A DNA stretch of 6,134 nt from Chloroflexia bacterium (GTDB lineage: Bacteria; Chloroflexota; Chloroflexia; QHBQ01; JADMIH01): positions 1-6,134 of the forward strand of contig JAICKM010000430.1 in the NCBI GenBank assembly GCA_025927935.1. Direction: 5' to 3'. The first letter of the stretch is position 1. Each line of letters starts with the position of its first letter. Both the position numbers and the translations under genes were made by a program. The notes below the pieces were generated by a model. That model was not told the origin of the DNA and made no database searches. It saw nothing but the letters and a program-made list of their open reading frames with translations. Of the stretch, positions 1,519 to 6,134 are shown piece by piece.

Positions 1519-1554
1519 AAAAAGGGCGGCCCGAATGGGCCGCCCTTTCGTTTT
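1519..1554. terminator. Bidirectional intrinsic terminator between convergent genes
   Basis: A perfect 12-bp inverted repeat (AAAGGGCGGCCC at 1521-1532, GGGCCGCCCTTT at 1537-1548) encloses a four-base GAAT loop. The stem is followed by CGTTTT on the plus strand. On the minus strand it is followed by an uninterrupted run of five T (plus-strand AAAAA at 1519-1523, partly inside the stem). It lies 23 nt after the solute-binding protein stop and about 21 nt after the FtsK-like stop, so it can end transcripts from both sides. The minus-strand T-run is the better one, suggesting stronger termination of the lexA operon. Confidence 0.9.
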
Positions 1555-1569
1555 CAGCATCCGCGTATT

Positions 1570-2733
1570 TCAGCGCAACAGGCTAGGCCCGGCGCCGGAG
1601 CGCCGTTGCACCATCTGCGGTCCCTTGCGCGCCGCGCTGGGGCGGCCCGCCTGCAATTCCATTTCCGCCGACATCTGCTCGGCGTCGGCGACCTGCTCCA
1701 GCAGGGCCACGGTGCGCGCCACTTCCTCCGGGCTGAGCGTGGCGGCCTGGAAGCGCACGGCCTCCCCACCCAACAAGGCCAGGAAGTCGCCGCCCCCCAG
1801 CAAGCCTTCGGCGCCACTGCCCTGCATACTCGACGCCGCCCGCGCCGCGGCGGCATCCCGGCAGCGCCCGACCAGCCGGGCGCCCCAGCTCAGTTGCTCC
1901 ACCAGCCCGGAACCCCGGCTTGACGCGACGAGATAGACGCCCAACTCGCGGCCATCGCGGACAATGCGGTCCAGCAGATCCAGCGACTCGGCGGCATGAG
2001 GTCCGGCGGCCAGTTCTTCCAGCCCATCGACCAGCATCACCAGGGAGGCGCCCTCGACGGGTTCGCCTTCCTGCACCAGTTCCGCCCGCTCTTTCATCAG
2101 GCGGCCTACCCAGCGCAGCCGCATATAGGCTTCCTGGGGTTCGCGCACCGGCTCCGTCACCATGTGGGGCAAGGGCGCCAGCGCCTCCCAGGCACTTTGC
2201 TGCTGCTTGCGGCCCCAGCGGGCCGGGCCGCTCACATCCATGAGCAACATGCGCAGCGTATCGGGGCTGTTATGGAGCGCGAGCGAGACGGCCATCGTCT
2301 GTAACAGATGCGTCTTCCCGGCGGCGGGCGCGCCGATAACCAGCGTGGGGCAGACTTCCGGCGCGTCAAGGCGCAACAGCAAGGGCGTGCCGCCAGTGTC
2401 CAGGCCCAGGGTCGCCGTGCAGGGCGGCACGATTTCGGCCACCTTTTTAGCGAGCGGCAGCAGGCGCACCGGCATCGGATCGGGGCGCGGTACTTCGAGC
2501 ACGGGTTCCCCCGTTTCGGGGTCGGGCGCCAGGCGCACGGCGGGCACCTGCAAGGCTTCGGCGATCTGCGGCAACAGTTGCGCGATCCGCGAAGTGCGCA
2601 CCGTCGGCGGCAGGCGCAGGTGGAAGTGAACCAGGCGGGGCGACAGCGCCCCGCCCGCCACCCGCCCATTGATGTCATGGGCGTGCAGCACATACTCTAT
2701 TGCGTTGGCATGGTGGTCTAACAAGTCGCGCAT
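1570..2733 (-). CDS. Short FtsK/SpoIIIE-type P-loop ATPase (motor core only), third gene of lexA operon
   Basis: A 387-aa soluble protein matching the FtsK/SpoIIIE motor core. Residues 32-90 resemble the alpha subdomain (LVHFHLRLPPTVRTSRIAQL, then a PETGEPVLEVPRPDP strand). A beta-like P-loop domain follows: LGLDTGGTPLLLRL at 109-122, Walker A GAPAAGKT at 134-141, LLMDVSG at 163-169, PLPHMVTEPV at 187-196 (compare the LPHL..PVVTD segment of FtsK), Walker B LVMLVD at 231-236, LGVYLVASSRGSG at 264-276 (compare GIHLVLATQRPS) and GAEGLLGGGDFL at 307-318 (compare GAEKLLGMGDML). FtsK proteins usually exceed 700 aa; the N-terminal membrane helices and C-terminal gamma DNA-reading domain are absent. 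Walker B reads DG where FtsK has DE, and the conserved Gln of the ATQRPS motif is missing, so ATPase activity may be reduced. The ATG at 2733 is the first standard start after the in-frame stop at 2794-2796, but no good Shine-Dalgarno precedes it. Family assignment is firm; function (DNA pumping, or a regulatory ATPase) is unknown. Confidence 0.85.
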   Translation of the reverse strand: MRDLLDHHANAIEYVLHAHDINGRVAGGALSPRLVHFHLRLPPTVRTSRIAQLLPQIAEALQVPAVRLAPDPETGEPVLEVPRPDPMPVRLLPLAKKVAEIVPPCTATLGLDTGGTPLLLRLDAPEVCPTLVIGAPAAGKTHLLQTMAVSLALHNSPDTLRMLLMDVSGPARWGRKQQQSAWEALAPLPHMVTEPVREPQEAYMRLRWVGRLMKERAELVQEGEPVEGASLVMLVDGLEELAAGPHAAESLDLLDRIVRDGRELGVYLVASSRGSGLVEQLSWGARLVGRCRDAAAARAASSMQGSGAEGLLGGGDFLALLGGEAVRFQAATLSPEEVARTVALLEQVADAEQMSAEMELQAGRPSAARKGPQMVQRRSGAGPSLLR

Positions 2734-2793
2734 CGAGTCCCAGGGGCGAGATAGTAAGGCGGCACGGGCGCCACGTAGCCCACGCGACCTAGG

Positions 2794-2823
2794 TTAGCTA
2801 CTCTTGATTTAGCTACTCTTTAT
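2794..2823 (-). repeat. 15-bp tandem duplication spanning the stop codon of the S24-like gene
   Basis: Two adjacent 15-bp units (2794-2808 and 2809-2823) match at 14 of 15 positions. Read on the minus strand, each encodes Ile-Lys-Ser-Ser-stop (ATA or ATC, then AAGAGTAGCTAA). The first copy forms the true C-terminus and stop of the S24-like protein; the second repeats the tail and adds a second in-frame TAA. The unit length is a multiple of three, so the frame is preserved. This looks like slippage or a local duplication. Confidence 0.85.
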
Positions 2824-3498
2824 AACGACAATGACCCGGCCCTGTACTTTCACCCGGTCCCGATCGGCACCCCTACTCCGGGCATTGGGGTAGAGCCGGA
2901 TCGGTTCTTGCGCCGCCGTGGCCGACTGCAAGAAGATGTGGTCTTGCTTGCGATAGAAGCGCTTCAGGGTGACATAGCCTTCCGGGTCGTCGGAGTCGGT
3001 CAGGTGGGCGACGACGAAGTCGCCGTTGTCGGCCCGATCCTGGGGATGGATGATGACCAGGTCGCCGGGGTCAATGCCGACATGGGTCATGGAGGTGCCG
3101 CGCACACGCAGGGCAAAGACGCCGCTCCCGTCACGGATCAGGGCGCGATCCACTTCCACGCCGTGTTCGTATTCGAGGTAGTCGTGGTAGGCGACGGTGG
3201 CATCGTAGCGGCCCGCGGCGATCTCGCCGACCACCGGCACGCGCACGGTGGCGCGGGCGACGGCCCGGCGCCGGGCGTCGGTGACATAAACACCGGCGTT
3301 CTTGCTGTTGCGGCGGAACGCCAGGCCGGGCGCGACAGGTTCGCTGCCGAGCACGCGCATGCCCTCCAGCGGGCCGCTTGCGTCGCGTATGGTGACTCCG
3401 GCGCCGGGGGCGCGCTCAAAAGCACCCCAGGCAGGAGCCGCGCCGGGGGCCAGCGCATCGGCTGCCCCCCGCGGCGCCATCCAGCGAGGATCCGGCAT
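2809..3498 (-). CDS. LexA/UmuD-type S24 family protein lacking a DNA-binding domain, second gene of lexA operon
   Basis: A 229-aa protein. Residues about 85-228 form a LexA-like S24 autoprotease domain: VRVPVVGEIAAG carries the predicted Ala95-Gly96 cleavage bond, RVRGTSM supplies the nucleophile Ser136, GIDPGDLVIIHPQ and NGDFVVAHL match the core strands, and YVTLKRFYRK supplies Lys179. The set needed for RecA-stimulated self-cleavage is therefore present. The N-terminal 85 residues are rich in Ala, Gly and Pro and show no winged helix like that of LexA upstream, so direct DNA binding is doubtful. The ATG at 3498 is backed by GGAGGG with an 8-nt spacer, and lexA ends only 24 nt before it, so a missed upstream HTH exon-like extension is excluded. 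Layout resembles UmuD (cleavable arm, no HTH), but the arm is far longer and no Y-family polymerase gene adjoins. It could be a signalling or decoy protein cleaved on DNA damage, or a divergent regulator; the role is inferred only. Confidence 0.88.
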   Translation of the reverse strand: MPDPRWMAPRGAADALAPGAAPAWGAFERAPGAGVTIRDASGPLEGMRVLGSEPVAPGLAFRRNSKNAGVYVTDARRRAVARATVRVPVVGEIAAGRYDATVAYHDYLEYEHGVEVDRALIRDGSGVFALRVRGTSMTHVGIDPGDLVIIHPQDRADNGDFVVAHLTDSDDPEGYVTLKRFYRKQDHIFLQSATAAQEPIRLYPNARSRGADRDRVKVQGRVIVVIKSS

Positions 3499-3506
3499 GG
3501 CGGTAT

Positions 3507-3512
3507 CCCTCC
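3507..3512 (-). promoter_or_regulatory. Ribosome binding site of the S24-like gene
   Basis: GGAGGG on the minus strand sits 8 nt upstream of the ATG at 3498, inside the short gap after the lexA stop. It is the strongest Shine-Dalgarno in the minus-strand operon and fixes the start, which matters because it shows that the protein lacks an N-terminal DNA-binding domain. Confidence 0.8.
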
Positions 3513-3522
3513 GTCGGCGAGC

Positions 3523-4191
3523 TTAGTCTACGTGCCGCAGAACGCCAACGACGCGGCCCTTGATTTCGAGATTGTCGGCCTCGGTGAAGATCGGATTCAT
3601 CGTTTCGTTGGCCGGCTGCAAGCGCACCCGCCCATCCGGCTCCAGATAGAACCGCTTGAGCGTGGCTTCCTGCTCGTTGCGCAGCCAGGCCACCACCGTC
3701 TGTCCCACTTCCGCCGTCTCCTGGGCCAGCACAATCACTACGTCGCCGTCGTTGATCAGATCTTCGATCATCGAGCGACCCTTGACGCGCAGGGCATAGA
3801 GGCTCTCCGGGTGCGCGGCGTACCGGCCCAGCAGCATCTGCGACACGTCCAGCATATCCTCCGTGGAGGCAAGCACGTCTTGCAGCACCGGGATAGGCGA
3901 ACCGGCAGCGATGGGCGTGGGGGCGACGGGGATGCGGAATACGGCGGGATTATTGCGATGGCCGTTCCCGTTCTCGACCAGCTCGATAGCGCGCGAAATC
4001 CCCTTGCCGCGCCGGATCTGCCCGCGCTCTTCCAGCGCCTTCAGGTTATAATCGACCACCGACGTAGACGATACCCTGGGCTGTAGCCCTTCCTGGATAT
4101 CGCGCACACTGGGCGGAAAGCCGTGGTCGTCGATGAACTTGCGGATAAACTCCAGGATCTTGGTCTGGCGCTCGGAAATATTCTTTGCCAT
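3523..4191 (-). CDS. lexA: LexA repressor, SOS regulator with autoprotease domain
   Basis: A 222-aa LexA, close to the usual 200-230 aa. It represses SOS genes as a dimer and self-cleaves when stimulated by RecA filaments. The N-terminal winged helix is clear: SERQTKILEFIRKFIDDHGFPPSVRDI begins at residue 6, the recognition-helix region SSTSVVDYNLKALEERG spans 41-57, and the wing with RRGKGISRAIEL follows to 71. The C-terminal S24 domain has the Ala96-Gly97 cleavage bond in PTPIAAG, nucleophile Ser140 in RVKGRSM, and Lys179 in ATLKRFY. The linker, NGNGHRNNPAVF, is about 15 residues. The ATG at 4191 is preceded by AAGGGGAG a few bases upstream. It is the first gene of a probable operon with the S24-like and FtsK-like genes. 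A LexA-type box lies inside the spacer of its strong promoter, implying autoregulation. The identification is firm. Confidence 0.97.
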   Translation of the reverse strand: MAKNISERQTKILEFIRKFIDDHGFPPSVRDIQEGLQPRVSSTSVVDYNLKALEERGQIRRGKGISRAIELVENGNGHRNNPAVFRIPVAPTPIAAGSPIPVLQDVLASTEDMLDVSQMLLGRYAAHPESLYALRVKGRSMIEDLINDGDVVIVLAQETAEVGQTVVAWLRNEQEATLKRFYLEPDGRVRLQPANETMNPIFTEADNLEIKGRVVGVLRHVD

Positions 4192-4412
4192 GGTCTCCCC
4201 TTCGATCAGTTCGTGTATGCCGGCTCCTTGCGGCTACACGCGCGGCACGTCGAGTACCTGACCCCTAGCTCCATCTACTTATCTAAAGGCGACAACCCCC
4301 GGCTCGATGAGGCCGGGCCGTTGCCTGCCGATTTCCACCAGTCGCCGCCGACAAAACAAAAAGTGGCATTTCACACTGACGGCAACACACATACACAGGG
4401 TACAAGGCTACT
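4192..4412 (-). other. Long 5' leader of lexA mRNA (predicted)
   Basis: If the promoter at 4419-4448 is used, transcription should start near 4412 and leave about 220 nt before the lexA ATG. The segment holds no convincing gene. It contains a U-rich stretch (plus-strand acaaaacaaaaag at 4351-4363), one GC-rich hairpin and a 37-codon frame without a Shine-Dalgarno. No known riboswitch was recognised. The leader extent depends wholly on the predicted promoter being the only one. Confidence 0.5.
4298..4317 (-). other. GC-rich hairpin in the lexA leader
   Basis: CCCGG (4298-4302) pairs with CCGGG (4313-4317), and CTC (4303-4305) pairs with GAG (4309-4311) around a GAT loop, leaving one bulged G at 4312. 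On the RNA this is an 8-bp stem. No U-run follows closely on the lexA strand, so it is not a canonical terminator; it may be only a leader structure. Confidence 0.4.
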
Positions 4413-4418
4413 AGGCTC

Positions 4419-4448
4419 ATCATAGCACAGAACAATCGTTCGTGTCAA
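4419..4448 (-). promoter_or_regulatory. Sigma70-type promoter of the lexA operon
   Basis: On the minus strand a perfect -35 TTGACA (plus 4443-4448) is separated by 18 bp from a -10 TATGAT (plus 4419-4424; 5 of 6 matches to TATAAT). A TG one base before the -10 gives an extended -10. The surroundings are AT-rich compared with the window. The spacer is occupied by a LexA-type operator, so repressor binding would block RNA polymerase directly. It is the best promoter visible in the window. Confidence 0.85.
4429..4442. promoter_or_regulatory. LexA operator (SOS box) in the lexA promoter spacer
   Basis: AGAACAATCGTTCG on the plus strand contains an exact palindromic GAAC-N4-GTTC core. This is the Bacillus/Gram-positive type of SOS box (consensus CGAAC-RNRY-GTTYG) rather than the proteobacterial CTGT-N8-ACAG type. 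It lies wholly between the -35 and -10 of the lexA promoter, the expected place for an autoregulatory operator. That this LexA uses this motif is inferred from position and palindrome. Confidence 0.85.
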
Positions 4449-4467
4449 TACTTTTAGGCCCAAAAAC

Positions 4468-4481
4468 CGAACAAGGGTGCT
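4468..4481. promoter_or_regulatory. Possible second, degenerate LexA box
   Basis: CGAACAAGGGTGCT has a GAAC-N4-GTGC core, matching 7 of 8 palindrome positions. It is centred about 39 bp from the perfect box and abuts an AT-rich TATAAATATA stretch at 4481-4490 on the cvpA side. It may be a weak second operator or chance. Confidence 0.3.
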
Positions 4482-4544
4482 ATAAATATAGAAACCCGCG
4501 CCCGGCACCGCCCGCGGACGGAGCGCGGCTCCATCGGCAGGCCG

Positions 4545-4574
4545 TTGCGTTATGCAGCTAAAAGCAGTAGAATG
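4545..4574 (+). promoter_or_regulatory. Weak candidate promoter for cvpA
   Basis: TTGCGT at 4545-4550 is separated by 18 bp from TAGAAT at 4569-4574 (5 of 6 to TATAAT), about 75 bp before the RBS of cvpA. The -35 match is only 3 of 6. TATAAATATA at 4481-4490 is an alternative -10 region but has no -35 at a suitable distance. The true start is unresolved. Confidence 0.3.
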
Positions 4575-4642
4575 GCAAAGACCGCAGCGCACGGACGCTC
4601 TGTGCTGCCGGTCTCCTGATGCGCCAACCCTGACCCCAGGCC

Positions 4643-4648
4643 AAGGAG
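4643..4648 (+). promoter_or_regulatory. Ribosome binding site of cvpA
   Basis: AAGGAG lies 7 nt before the ATG at 4656. This spacing favours the ATG over the in-frame TTG at 4650, which would be only one base from the AAGGAG. Confidence 0.8.
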
Positions 4649-4655
4649 TTTGCTC

Positions 4656-5303
4656 ATGCCACCAGAGCTTATTCAATTCATCAAAGACCTGCATGTGGTA
4701 GATATCATCCTGTTCTTGATTATCGTGGGCTTTGCTTTCCTGGGCTTCACGAAGGGGACAGTGAAGCTGTTCATCATCCTGGCGTCCATTTATCTGGGCT
4801 TCATCATCGCCGCCATCTATTACCTGCCGGTGGCCGACCTGGTGCACAACGTGTTCAATGTCAGCCTGAGTCGCGTAGCCCAGATCATCGCCTTCTTGTT
4901 GATTAACGTGGTCGTGGCGGTGGTGCTCACGATTCTGCTGTTGCAGTTCTTCGGCCACATTGAGATCGAGGGCCGGGCCGGGGCCTGCATCGACCGGCCC
5001 ATCGGCATGTTGCTGGGCTTCGTCACGGGCATCCTGTTCACGGCGATCCTGGTTATCTTGCTTGAAGTGCCCTACACCCTGTACGAAGATCTGCGCCTGG
5101 CCGGCGACCAGGCGCCCTTGTTCGGCATCCTCCACGACTGGTTCAGCAACTCGCTGCTCGTGCCGGTGCTGGTCAAGGGCTTACCCATCCTCATGGGCAG
5201 CATTGCGCCGCTGCTCAACGGGCACGAGCCGCCGATCCTGATCAAACCAACCAGTGAGGCAATGCCGTTCTTAATAGGGCTGGTCGATTCGCGGCTGGGC
5301 TAA
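4656..5303 (+). CDS. CvpA-family integral membrane protein
   Basis: A 215-aa inner-membrane protein of the CvpA (colicin V production) family; the general role of the family is poorly understood and no enzymatic function is assigned. Four hydrophobic segments are visible at about residues 14-32, 36-57, 74-98 and 115-138. The family pattern holds: a short N-terminus, then VDIILFLIIVGFAFLGFTKG, and an IDRPIGMLLGFVTG motif at 112-125 (compare the DR..G...G motif of CvpA) before the last helix. A polar C-terminal tail with DWFSNSLLVPVL at 161-172 follows, as in relatives. The start is fixed by AAGGAG upstream. It lies directly ahead of mutS2; a cvpA-like gene (yshB) also lies near mutS2 in Bacillus subtilis, with polX between, so the pairing looks conserved. 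It is transcribed divergently from lexA. A terminator follows, so mutS2 may depend on read-through or its own promoter. Confidence 0.85.
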   Translation: MPPELIQFIKDLHVVDIILFLIIVGFAFLGFTKGTVKLFIILASIYLGFIIAAIYYLPVADLVHNVFNVSLSRVAQIIAFLLINVVVAVVLTILLLQFFGHIEIEGRAGACIDRPIGMLLGFVTGILFTAILVILLEVPYTLYEDLRLAGDQAPLFGILHDWFSNSLLVPVLVKGLPILMGSIAPLLNGHEPPILIKPTSEAMPFLIGLVDSRLG

Positions 5304-5314
5304 CCCGGTCCGTA

Positions 5315-5332
5315 ACCGGCGCACTTGCCGGT
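5315..5332 (+). other. Small hairpin after cvpA
   Basis: A perfect 6-bp stem (ACCGGC at 5315-5320, GCCGGT at 5327-5332) with a GCACTT loop lies 11 nt after the cvpA stop. No T-run follows, so it is not a terminator alone; it may protect the transcript end or be incidental. Confidence 0.3.
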
Positions 5333-5346
5333 GTCGTCGCTCGCCC

Positions 5347-5379
5347 AGGGCGCGCCCGTACCGTCGGGGGCGCCTTTTT
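5347..5379 (+). terminator. Intrinsic terminator between cvpA and mutS2
   Basis: AGGGCGC (5347-5353) pairs with GCGCCTT (5370-5376), including one G-T pair. After a G-G mismatch, CCCG (5355-5358) pairs with CGGG (5365-5368) around a TACCGT loop. Five T follow the GC-rich stem (5375-5379). It lies about 43 nt after the cvpA stop and should at least partly separate cvpA from mutS2. Confidence 0.75.
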
Positions 5380-5408
5380 CCTGACTTGCTAATTATCGCG
5401 CGTTACTA

Positions 5409-5414
5409 GAAGGA
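5409..5414 (+). promoter_or_regulatory. Ribosome binding site of mutS2
   Basis: GAAGGA precedes the GTG at 5424 by 9 nt and supports that start. An AT-rich stretch just before it (TTGCTAATTAT at 5386-5396) could contribute to a promoter, but no convincing -35/-10 pair was found. Confidence 0.55.
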
Positions 5415-5423
5415 CCCAATCGC

Positions 5424-6134
5424 GTGAACCCTAAGACAATCAACATCCTGGAGCTACCCAAGGTCCTGGCGCGCCTGGCAGGCTATACCGCCTTCAGCGC
5501 CAGCCGGACCGCGGCCCAGGCGCTCACGCCCTCGACCGATCTGGCCGAGGTGCGCCGCCGCCAGCAGCACACCACCGAGGCAGTGCGCCTGCTCGGGCTG
5601 CGCCCGGAAATCGGCCTGGGCGGCGTCCACGACATCCGCGACAGCGTGCGGCGCGCCGATCTGGGTGCGGCCCTCGAACCCGGCGAGTTCCTGGTGATCC
5701 AGAGCACGATGGAGGCGGCGCGCGAACTGCGCACGGTCATGCTGCGCACCGAGGAGCAGAAAGGGGGCCTGCCGGTGCTGGCCGGACTGGCCGGCGGCAT
5801 CACGCCCCTGCCCCGGCTCGAAACCGCCATCCGTCGCACCTTCGACAAGGACGGCAATATCCCCGACTCGGCCAGCCCGGCGCTAGGCCGCATCCGCGCC
5901 CAGGTGCGGATCGCCCACGACCGGCTGATGAGCAAGCTGCAACAGATCGTCAATTCGAGCAGCGCGTTGCAAGAGCCGATCATCAGCATGCGTGGCGACC
6001 GCTATGTGGTGCCGGTGAAGGCCGACTTCCGCAGCCAGATGAAGGGCATCGTCCACGACCAGTCGTCCAGCGGCGCCACGCTCTGGGTGGAACCAATGGC
6101 CGTGGTCGAGCTGGCGAACGACTGGCGCAAGCTA
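5424..6134 (+). CDS. mutS2: MutS2 family protein, N-terminal part, 3'-truncated by window edge
   Basis: The first 237 residues of MutS2, a MutS-homologous ATPase. In studied bacteria MutS2 suppresses recombination or acts on stalled ribosomes, depending on species; full-length members are about 780-800 aa. The GTG start at 5424 gives MNPKTINILELPKVLARLAGYTAFSASR, matching the usual N-terminal LE..KVL..LA.Y..F..GR pattern. LGGVHDIRDSVRRADLGAALEPGEFL at 65-90 matches the family core near this position. Near the window end, MRGDRYVVPVKADFRSQMKGIVHDQSSSGATLWVEPMAVVELAND (189-233) is the highly conserved segment of the lever/clamp-linking region. The Walker A/B ATPase domain and C-terminal Smr domain would lie beyond the window. 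The frame is uninterrupted to the edge. Identity is firm; mutS2 here follows cvpA, a known pairing. Confidence 0.95.
   Translation, partial: MNPKTINILELPKVLARLAGYTAFSASRTAAQALTPSTDLAEVRRRQQHTTEAVRLLGLRPEIGLGGVHDIRDSVRRADLGAALEPGEFLVIQSTMEAARELRTVMLRTEEQKGGLPVLAGLAGGITPLPRLETAIRRTFDKDGNIPDSASPALGRIRAQVRIAHDRLMSKLQQIVNSSSALQEPIISMRGDRYVVPVKADFRSQMKGIVHDQSSSGATLWVEPMAVVELANDWRKL

Follow-up and report, generated by a model that had tools for sequence, protein, structure and literature searches.

A putative LexA-controlled operon of Chloroflexia, coding for LexA, an S24 protein without recognised DNA-binding domain and an FtsK-type ATPase without the catalytic glutamate

Results and discussion

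The question raised by contig JAICKM010000430.1 of a Chloroflexia bacterium (assembly GCA_025927935.1) is what two further genes, one for an S24-family protein and one for a relative of the FtsK motor, may do behind lexA, in what looks like a single operon. The window, i.e. the whole analysed stretch of 6,134 nucleotides (nt), was examined for regulatory signals, protein families, structures and relatives. The reading proposed here, tentatively and with somewhat less than an even chance of being right, is a LexA-autoregulated SOS operon of Chloroflexia, where LexA is joined by a UmuD-like switch and by an ATP-binding, probably non-translocating partner, together placing division or the translocation of the chromosome under a damage-timed hold.

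Layout and control of the operon

An earlier note, made from the sequence, had described three minus-strand genes, spaced by 24 and about 75 nt, behind one strong promoter carrying a LexA-type box and ending at one terminator. This layout is borne out by the features below (aa, amino acids; HTH, helix-turn-helix); the gaps measure 24 nt (3499-3522) between lexA and the S24 gene, and 75 nt (2734-2808) between the S24 and the ATPase genes.

3523-4191, minus strand: lexA, 222 aa, with a LexA DNA-binding domain and an S24 domain
2809-3498, minus strand: gene for the HTH-less S24 protein, 229 aa, with an N-terminal arm and a C-terminal domain of LexA type
1570-2733, minus strand: gene for the ATPase of FtsK alpha-beta fold, 387 aa
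4419-4448, minus strand: sigma-70-type promoter TTGACA-18-TATGAT, with extended -10 (TG), 11 of 12 consensus positions
4430-4441, no strand: LexA box GAACAATCGTTC (GAAC-N4-GTTC), placed between -35 and -10 of this promoter
4192-4412, minus strand: leader of about 220 nt, from the predicted transcription start (placed from the -10 position) to the lexA ATG
1520-1549, minus strand: intrinsic terminator hairpin, 13-bp stem, 20 nt beyond the third stop codon

The first gene product is a LexA by family model and domains. It scores 157.6 bits with TIGR00498 (cut-off 110.95), contains PF01726 (HTH) and PF00717 (S24), and resembles solved LexA structures along its whole length, the best in the Foldseek list being 3k2z, from Thermotoga maritima. 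With known LexA systems it shares the two domains, the Ala-Gly site, the Ser-Lys dyad and a GAAC-N4-GTTC box at its own promoter; the difference lies in the two more genes found downstream.

The lexA promoter is the better of the two promoter matches in the window (shuffled sequences: mean 1.2, standard deviation 1.1). The box GAACAATCGTTC is the sole exact GAAC-N4-GTTC of the window: exact copies occur in 22 of 5000 shuffles of the 458-nt intergenic stretch (4192-4649), and in 20 of 500 shuffles of the whole window. The longer 14-nt pattern CGAACNNNNGTTCG, searched with at most two mismatches, is found 4 times versus 3.04 expected, showing no excess; the weight of the LexA box rests, therefore, on its exactness and position. 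According to PMC3323433, GAAC-N4-GTTC is the B. subtilis LexA box, a definition extended there to Gram-positive bacteria; it is predicted to be the site recognised by the LexA of Chloroflexota as well.

The 75-nt gap holds no promoter-like site in the promoter scan, and no clear Shine-Dalgarno sequence is seen upstream of the ATPase gene: the three genes are, for these reasons, likely co-transcribed, and LexA would control all of them. A 15-nt tandem duplication (2794-2823, 14 of 15 positions identical) is located at the S24 stop codon, one copy forming the end of the S24 gene, the other falling within the 75-nt gap. No Rfam family reaches threshold anywhere in the window, the long lexA leader included. 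The terminator hairpin lies between convergent genes, and may serve those on both sides; the T run on the plus strand is weaker, and is not called by the scan.

The second gene: an S24 protein without recognised DNA-binding domain

PF00717, at residues 88-223, is the sole domain recognised in the second protein, and no HTH family is found by Pfam at E <= 1. The structure model, of moderate confidence (predicted local distance difference test, pLDDT, 69), has no HTH in the N-terminal arm, most of which is modelled with low confidence. Matches listed by Foldseek at E <= 0.001 are LexA, UmuD and lambda repressor. The C-terminal domain matches both UmuD and UmuD' structures, and has the same fold as that of LexA, the two proteins of the window being 29% identical. 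The score with the UmuD model NF007621, 46 bits, is below its cut-off of 110.

In an alignment of 121 sequences, composed of the window protein and the best 120 of 320 matches, four elements are kept almost throughout:

3286-3312, minus strand: arm motif R63-N64-x-x-N67-x-x-V70-Y71, each position in 118-119 of 121
3211-3216, minus strand: Ala95-Gly96, predicted cleavage site, in 120 of 121, with one gap
3091-3093, minus strand: Ser136 of the Ser-Lys dyad, in 121 of 121
2962-2964, minus strand: Lys179 of the Ser-Lys dyad, in 121 of 121

An Ala-Gly bond (Cys-Gly in UmuD) and a Ser-Lys dyad are the determinants of RecA-mediated self-cleavage (PMC8565304). Judged by these residues, the protein is predicted to be self-cleavage-competent, as the earlier note had it. 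The HTH-less form is not a mere product of searching for S24 proteins: in a control search of a genome collection, run with an alignment of S24 proteins, 38 loci were found, titled as Patescibacteria-type groups, a TM6 bacterium or organisms named just "bacterium", and the S24 open reading frames of all 38 contain a LexA DNA-binding domain. None of these loci, which serve as control and not as relatives of the three-gene set, is titled Chloroflexota, nor do they feature an ATPase of the operon type at E 1e-5.

The closest known counterpart is UmuD, a subunit of E. coli polymerase V, which shares the absence of an HTH, the C-terminal fold and the cleavage chemistry. In UmuD, however, 24 residues precede the cleavage site, while here about 95 do, carrying a motif of their own; and umuD normally adjoins umuC, while the gene downstream of the S24 gene is FtsK-like. 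These differences bear on a first alternative, in which the operon would assist translesion synthesis, the S24 protein playing the part of UmuD for a Y-family or DnaE2-type polymerase whose gene lies elsewhere, with the ATPase as an ImuA-like adaptor. The best-known HTH-less, self-cleaving S24 protein is indeed a polymerase subunit, UmuD (PMC8565304), and both the structural matches and the sub-threshold NF007621 score point the same way. Since no polymerase is found among the identified genes of the window, the arm is much longer than that of UmuD and the ATPase belongs by family to the FtsK type, this explanation is regarded as unlikely.

The third gene: an FtsK-type ATPase without the catalytic glutamate

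Pfam recognises FtsK_alpha and FtsK_SpoIIIE in the third protein, and no gamma domain at E <= 1; in the structure model, the alpha-beta fold appears to take up the 387 residues. VIA-align ranks FtsK on top, followed by EccC/EssC, TcpA and HerA. The two nucleotide-binding motifs differ in their fate:

2311-2334, minus strand: Walker A (P-loop) GAPAAGKT, kept, from sequence and alignment
2023-2028, minus strand: Walker B Asp236-Gly237, with Gly at the position of the FtsK catalytic Glu

The loss is not peculiar to this protein. In an alignment of 103 ATPases (P0223 and P0224 were left out), 90 are without the catalytic Glu (Glu596 in 0 of 90) and 13 keep it, the two groups being defined on Glu596 itself. 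The P-loop Lys is kept in both (89 of 90 and 13 of 13), while other motor residues follow the Glu: the phosphosensor Gln631 is present in 6 of the 90 and in all 13, a Lys or Arg (K/R) at loop II position 643 in 7 of the 90 and, again, in all 13. Loop II measures 16 residues in the 13 Glu-keeping sequences and in E. coli FtsK, and 11-13 residues, i.e. 3-5 fewer, in 86 of the 87 Glu-less rows with letters there. By alignment, the ATPase of the window has no K/R at loop II positions 632 or 643.

Compared to the FtsK motor, the operon ATPase shares the alpha-beta fold and the P-loop, but features DG in place of hhhhDE and no listed gamma domain, while across the Glu-less group the phosphosensor is mostly lost and loop II is shorter and mostly uncharged. 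Because the catalytic Glu, mostly the phosphosensor, and the DNA-gripping features of loop II are lost while the P-loop is intact, the protein is probably non-translocating; most likely it is a ring or scaffold that binds ATP and acts on protein partners, and does not pump DNA. In a quick maximum-likelihood tree, all 83 Glu-less rows of full length group in a single clade, with a support of 100 in the SH-aLRT (Shimodaira-Hasegawa-like approximate likelihood-ratio test); 8 short or ambiguous rows had been left out, and the program warned of long branches meeting at the base. A single, old loss of the Glu, together with long conservation of P-loop and fold, favours ATP binding without motor action over decay.

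These results also bear on the description of the third protein, in the earlier note, as a P-loop motor related to FtsK. Fold, families and P-loop confirm the relationship; the word "motor" is not supported, given the 0 of 90 count for the catalytic Glu and the mostly lost loop II. An active, SOS-induced mini-FtsK translocase, handling the chromosome, is accordingly improbable, kinship to FtsK notwithstanding: the catalytic Glu is missing in 90 of 90, charges and length of loop II, kept in 13 other paralogues, are mostly lost, and no gamma domain is listed.

The 13 Glu-keeping sequences (P0206, P0209-P0218, P0220 and P0221) are stand-alone FtsK alpha-beta ATPases, which keep the catalytic Glu, the phosphosensor, the finger and the loop II charges, though not Lys657 of loop I. 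They may form an active sister to the ATPase of the operon.

Among known systems, EccC/EssC type VII ATPases also feature the FtsK fold, and the DUF domains of EccC also lack the catalytic Glu (PMC11154593); the P-loop of those domains is, however, degenerate, while the operon ATPase is a single-domain protein with the P-loop kept. It scores far below the cut-off with all EccC/EssC models (TIGR03925, 37.2 bits versus 346.55; TIGR03924, 35.7 versus 509.15; TIGR03928, 27.4 versus 778.4). FtsK domains predicted to be inactive are mentioned in other systems (PMC7159879), so that inactivity of FtsK domains is not in itself a novelty.

Conservation of the three-gene set

Homologues of all three proteins were searched for, as the earlier note had suggested, and the match lists contain the best 120 of 320 matches for the S24 protein, the best 120 of 7993 for LexA, and all 104 for the ATPase; for best-match lists, absence of an entry means little. 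Wherever organisms are named among the matches listed, they are Chloroflexia or Chloroflexota (13 of 13 for the S24 protein, 8 of 8 for the ATPase and 10 of 10 for LexA). Shared contigs were recognised by equal "longest contig" values, in nt, and not by accession numbers, among 118 S24, 118 LexA and 101 ATPase entries (2, 2 and 3 entries without a value were left out). LexA and S24 lists share 31 values, versus a mean of 2.2 and a maximum of 8 in jittered controls; S24 and ATPase lists share 16 (mean 1.1, maximum 6), as do LexA and ATPase lists (mean 1.0, maximum 7). Nine values, including 4377, 5402 and 6299 nt, are common to all three lists. Examples of contigs with the complete set are those of P0230/P0009/P0122 (11,836 nt) and P0298/P0082/P0167 (4,377 nt).

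When compared by eye, the data source is also shared in 16 of 16 S24-ATPase, 16 of 16 LexA-ATPase and 29 of 31 LexA-S24 cases, the exceptions being contigs of 1186 and 1006 nt; a second ATPase, P0171, has the same value as the 3041-nt S24 contig, with a different source. The shortest LexA-S24 contig with a shared source, 1,398 nt for proteins of 214 and 235 aa, has only about 50 nt left over. Every ATPase linked by contig to S24 or LexA is Glu-less; the 13 Glu-keeping rows contribute none. Over 15 linked pairs (fragment P0137 was left out), the distances between S24 proteins correlate with those between their ATPases (r 0.87; 0 of 5000 permutations), as expected under joint inheritance. From these lists, the lexA-S24-ATPase set looks conserved in Chloroflexota.

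Joint inheritance helps in weighing two other explanations. The S24 protein might tune LexA, by pairing with it or by competing for RecA filaments, thus setting the threshold or shut-off of the SOS response, with the ATPase as passenger or ATP-dependent helper. Adjacency of the two genes in the window, their shared contigs, the common C-terminal fold and the 29% identity agree with such a role, which is nonetheless rather improbable, as a decoy leaves both the arm motif and the co-inheritance of the ATPase (r 0.87) unexplained. A remnant of a mobile element, made of a phage-type repressor and an FtsK-like gene stuck beside lexA, is suggested by matches of the S24 protein to phrog_4 (repressor) and of the ATPase to phrog_1358 (FtsK/SpoIIIE-like). 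Yet no relative of either protein is confirmed in viral contigs, all matches, searched in plasmids for both proteins and in phages for the ATPase, are below 60% identity, and the 15 linked pairs point to joint inheritance: a very improbable origin, on balance. In plasmids, the S24 protein matches 27 records, none covering 80%, and those named among the 10 listed are lexA. The ATPase matches 55 phage records, mostly mycobacteriophage FtsK-like genes, none covering 80%, and 21 plasmid records, two of which cover 80%, at 25% identity.

Defence models gave only weak matches, to SspH and mad8, for the ATPase and none for LexA or the S24 protein; a defence system was dropped for this reason.

Proposed mechanism and output

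For the damage-timed hold proposed at the outset, the following course may be envisaged. LexA would cleave itself when it meets RecA filaments, and all three genes, judging from the LexA box and the features of LexA, would be derepressed. The S24 protein, a second, UmuD-like switch without recognised DNA-binding domain, would in turn be led by RecA filaments to cleave itself at Ala95-Gly96. Given the conserved chemistry, this predicted cleavage would free the N-terminal arm with its RN..N..VY motif, and leave a C-terminal domain of the LexA/UmuD' type. The ATPase, with its FtsK alpha-beta fold and intact P-loop, would be an ATP-binding ring or scaffold that acts on protein partners, and not on DNA; it would probably partner the S24 protein and either an active FtsK or the division machinery. 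The output would be a damage-timed hold on division or on chromosome translocation.

A division or chromosome checkpoint is, by analogy, the likeliest output, because SOS division inhibitors are often found near lexA, FtsK is septum-located and ftsK has an SOS promoter in E. coli. In Gram-positive bacteria such inhibitors are reported as commonly co-localised with lexA (PMC6851548); FtsK is described as a septum-located translocase (PMC3025954), and the SOS promoter of E. coli ftsK, the precedent invoked in the earlier note, is indeed on record (PMC4080785). The damage-linked interpretation advanced there is thus supported in part: the SOS features of the operon fit it, with a checkpoint as the likeliest outcome, while chromosome handling by an active mini-FtsK does not follow. 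The lexA-adjacent inhibitors YneA, SosA, DivS and ChiZ resemble the operon in their position and in LexA control, presumed here; they differ in having a single membrane span (PMC6851548), while the operon codes for S24 and FtsK-fold proteins.

Several observations weigh against a hold exerted by a motor-dead ATPase. Contact between S24 protein and ATPase, as well as any link to division, is presumed; the S24 model is of moderate quality; and conservation of the set, as deduced, derives from protein match lists and not from gene order, strand or LexA boxes of the relatives. In the ATPases, K/R632 of loop II survives in 30 of the 90 Glu-less sequences, and an Arg at the finger position, where the alignment is uncertain, in 37. 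Lys657 of loop I is absent from nearly all rows of both groups and cannot, therefore, separate them. In 45 of the 90, mostly between P0157 and P0203, a Glu occupies the position of the phosphosensor Gln631, as a possible replacement acidic residue, and the window ATPase has Glu239-Glu240 close to Walker B, so that hydrolysis may proceed through another residue.

A bolder version, for which a low probability must be admitted, sees the operon as a new class of damage checkpoint. Here an SOS-induced, hydrolysis-dead FtsK paralogue would enter or cap an active FtsK-type ring, which it could lock, or would hold a division protein. Chromosome translocation and septation would stall, and loading or release of the dead subunit would be timed by the S24 protein, through its conserved arm, upon cleavage triggered by RecA.

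The triad, not recognised as a described system in the earlier note, is likewise absent from the literature searched: among titles and abstract beginnings of the best-ranked results, none describes a lexA-S24-FtsK set, nor an SOS response or regulon study of Chloroflexota. Chloroflexi are named in the available text of PMC3323433 only before the analysis is restricted to other groups, and RegPrecise 3.0 is stated to include a Chloroflexi collection (PMC3840689). If the proposal is true, the core lexA operon of these bacteria carries, besides LexA, one more switch under RecA control and an FtsK relative that is dead as a motor. Nature would then have provided a test for the role of a Walker-B-dead hexamer subunit in living cells, and a way of studying how division is restrained while DNA is repaired, beyond the well-studied phyla.

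Neighbouring genes

Divergent from the operon, region 4650-6134 contains a CvpA-like gene (PF02674) and, behind it, the first part of mutS2 (TIGR01069, 214 bits, partial), so that lexA adjoins another DNA-maintenance gene. On the other side, the operon faces a convergent gene for a family-5 solute-binding protein (73-1497, PF00496), which may begin outside the window.

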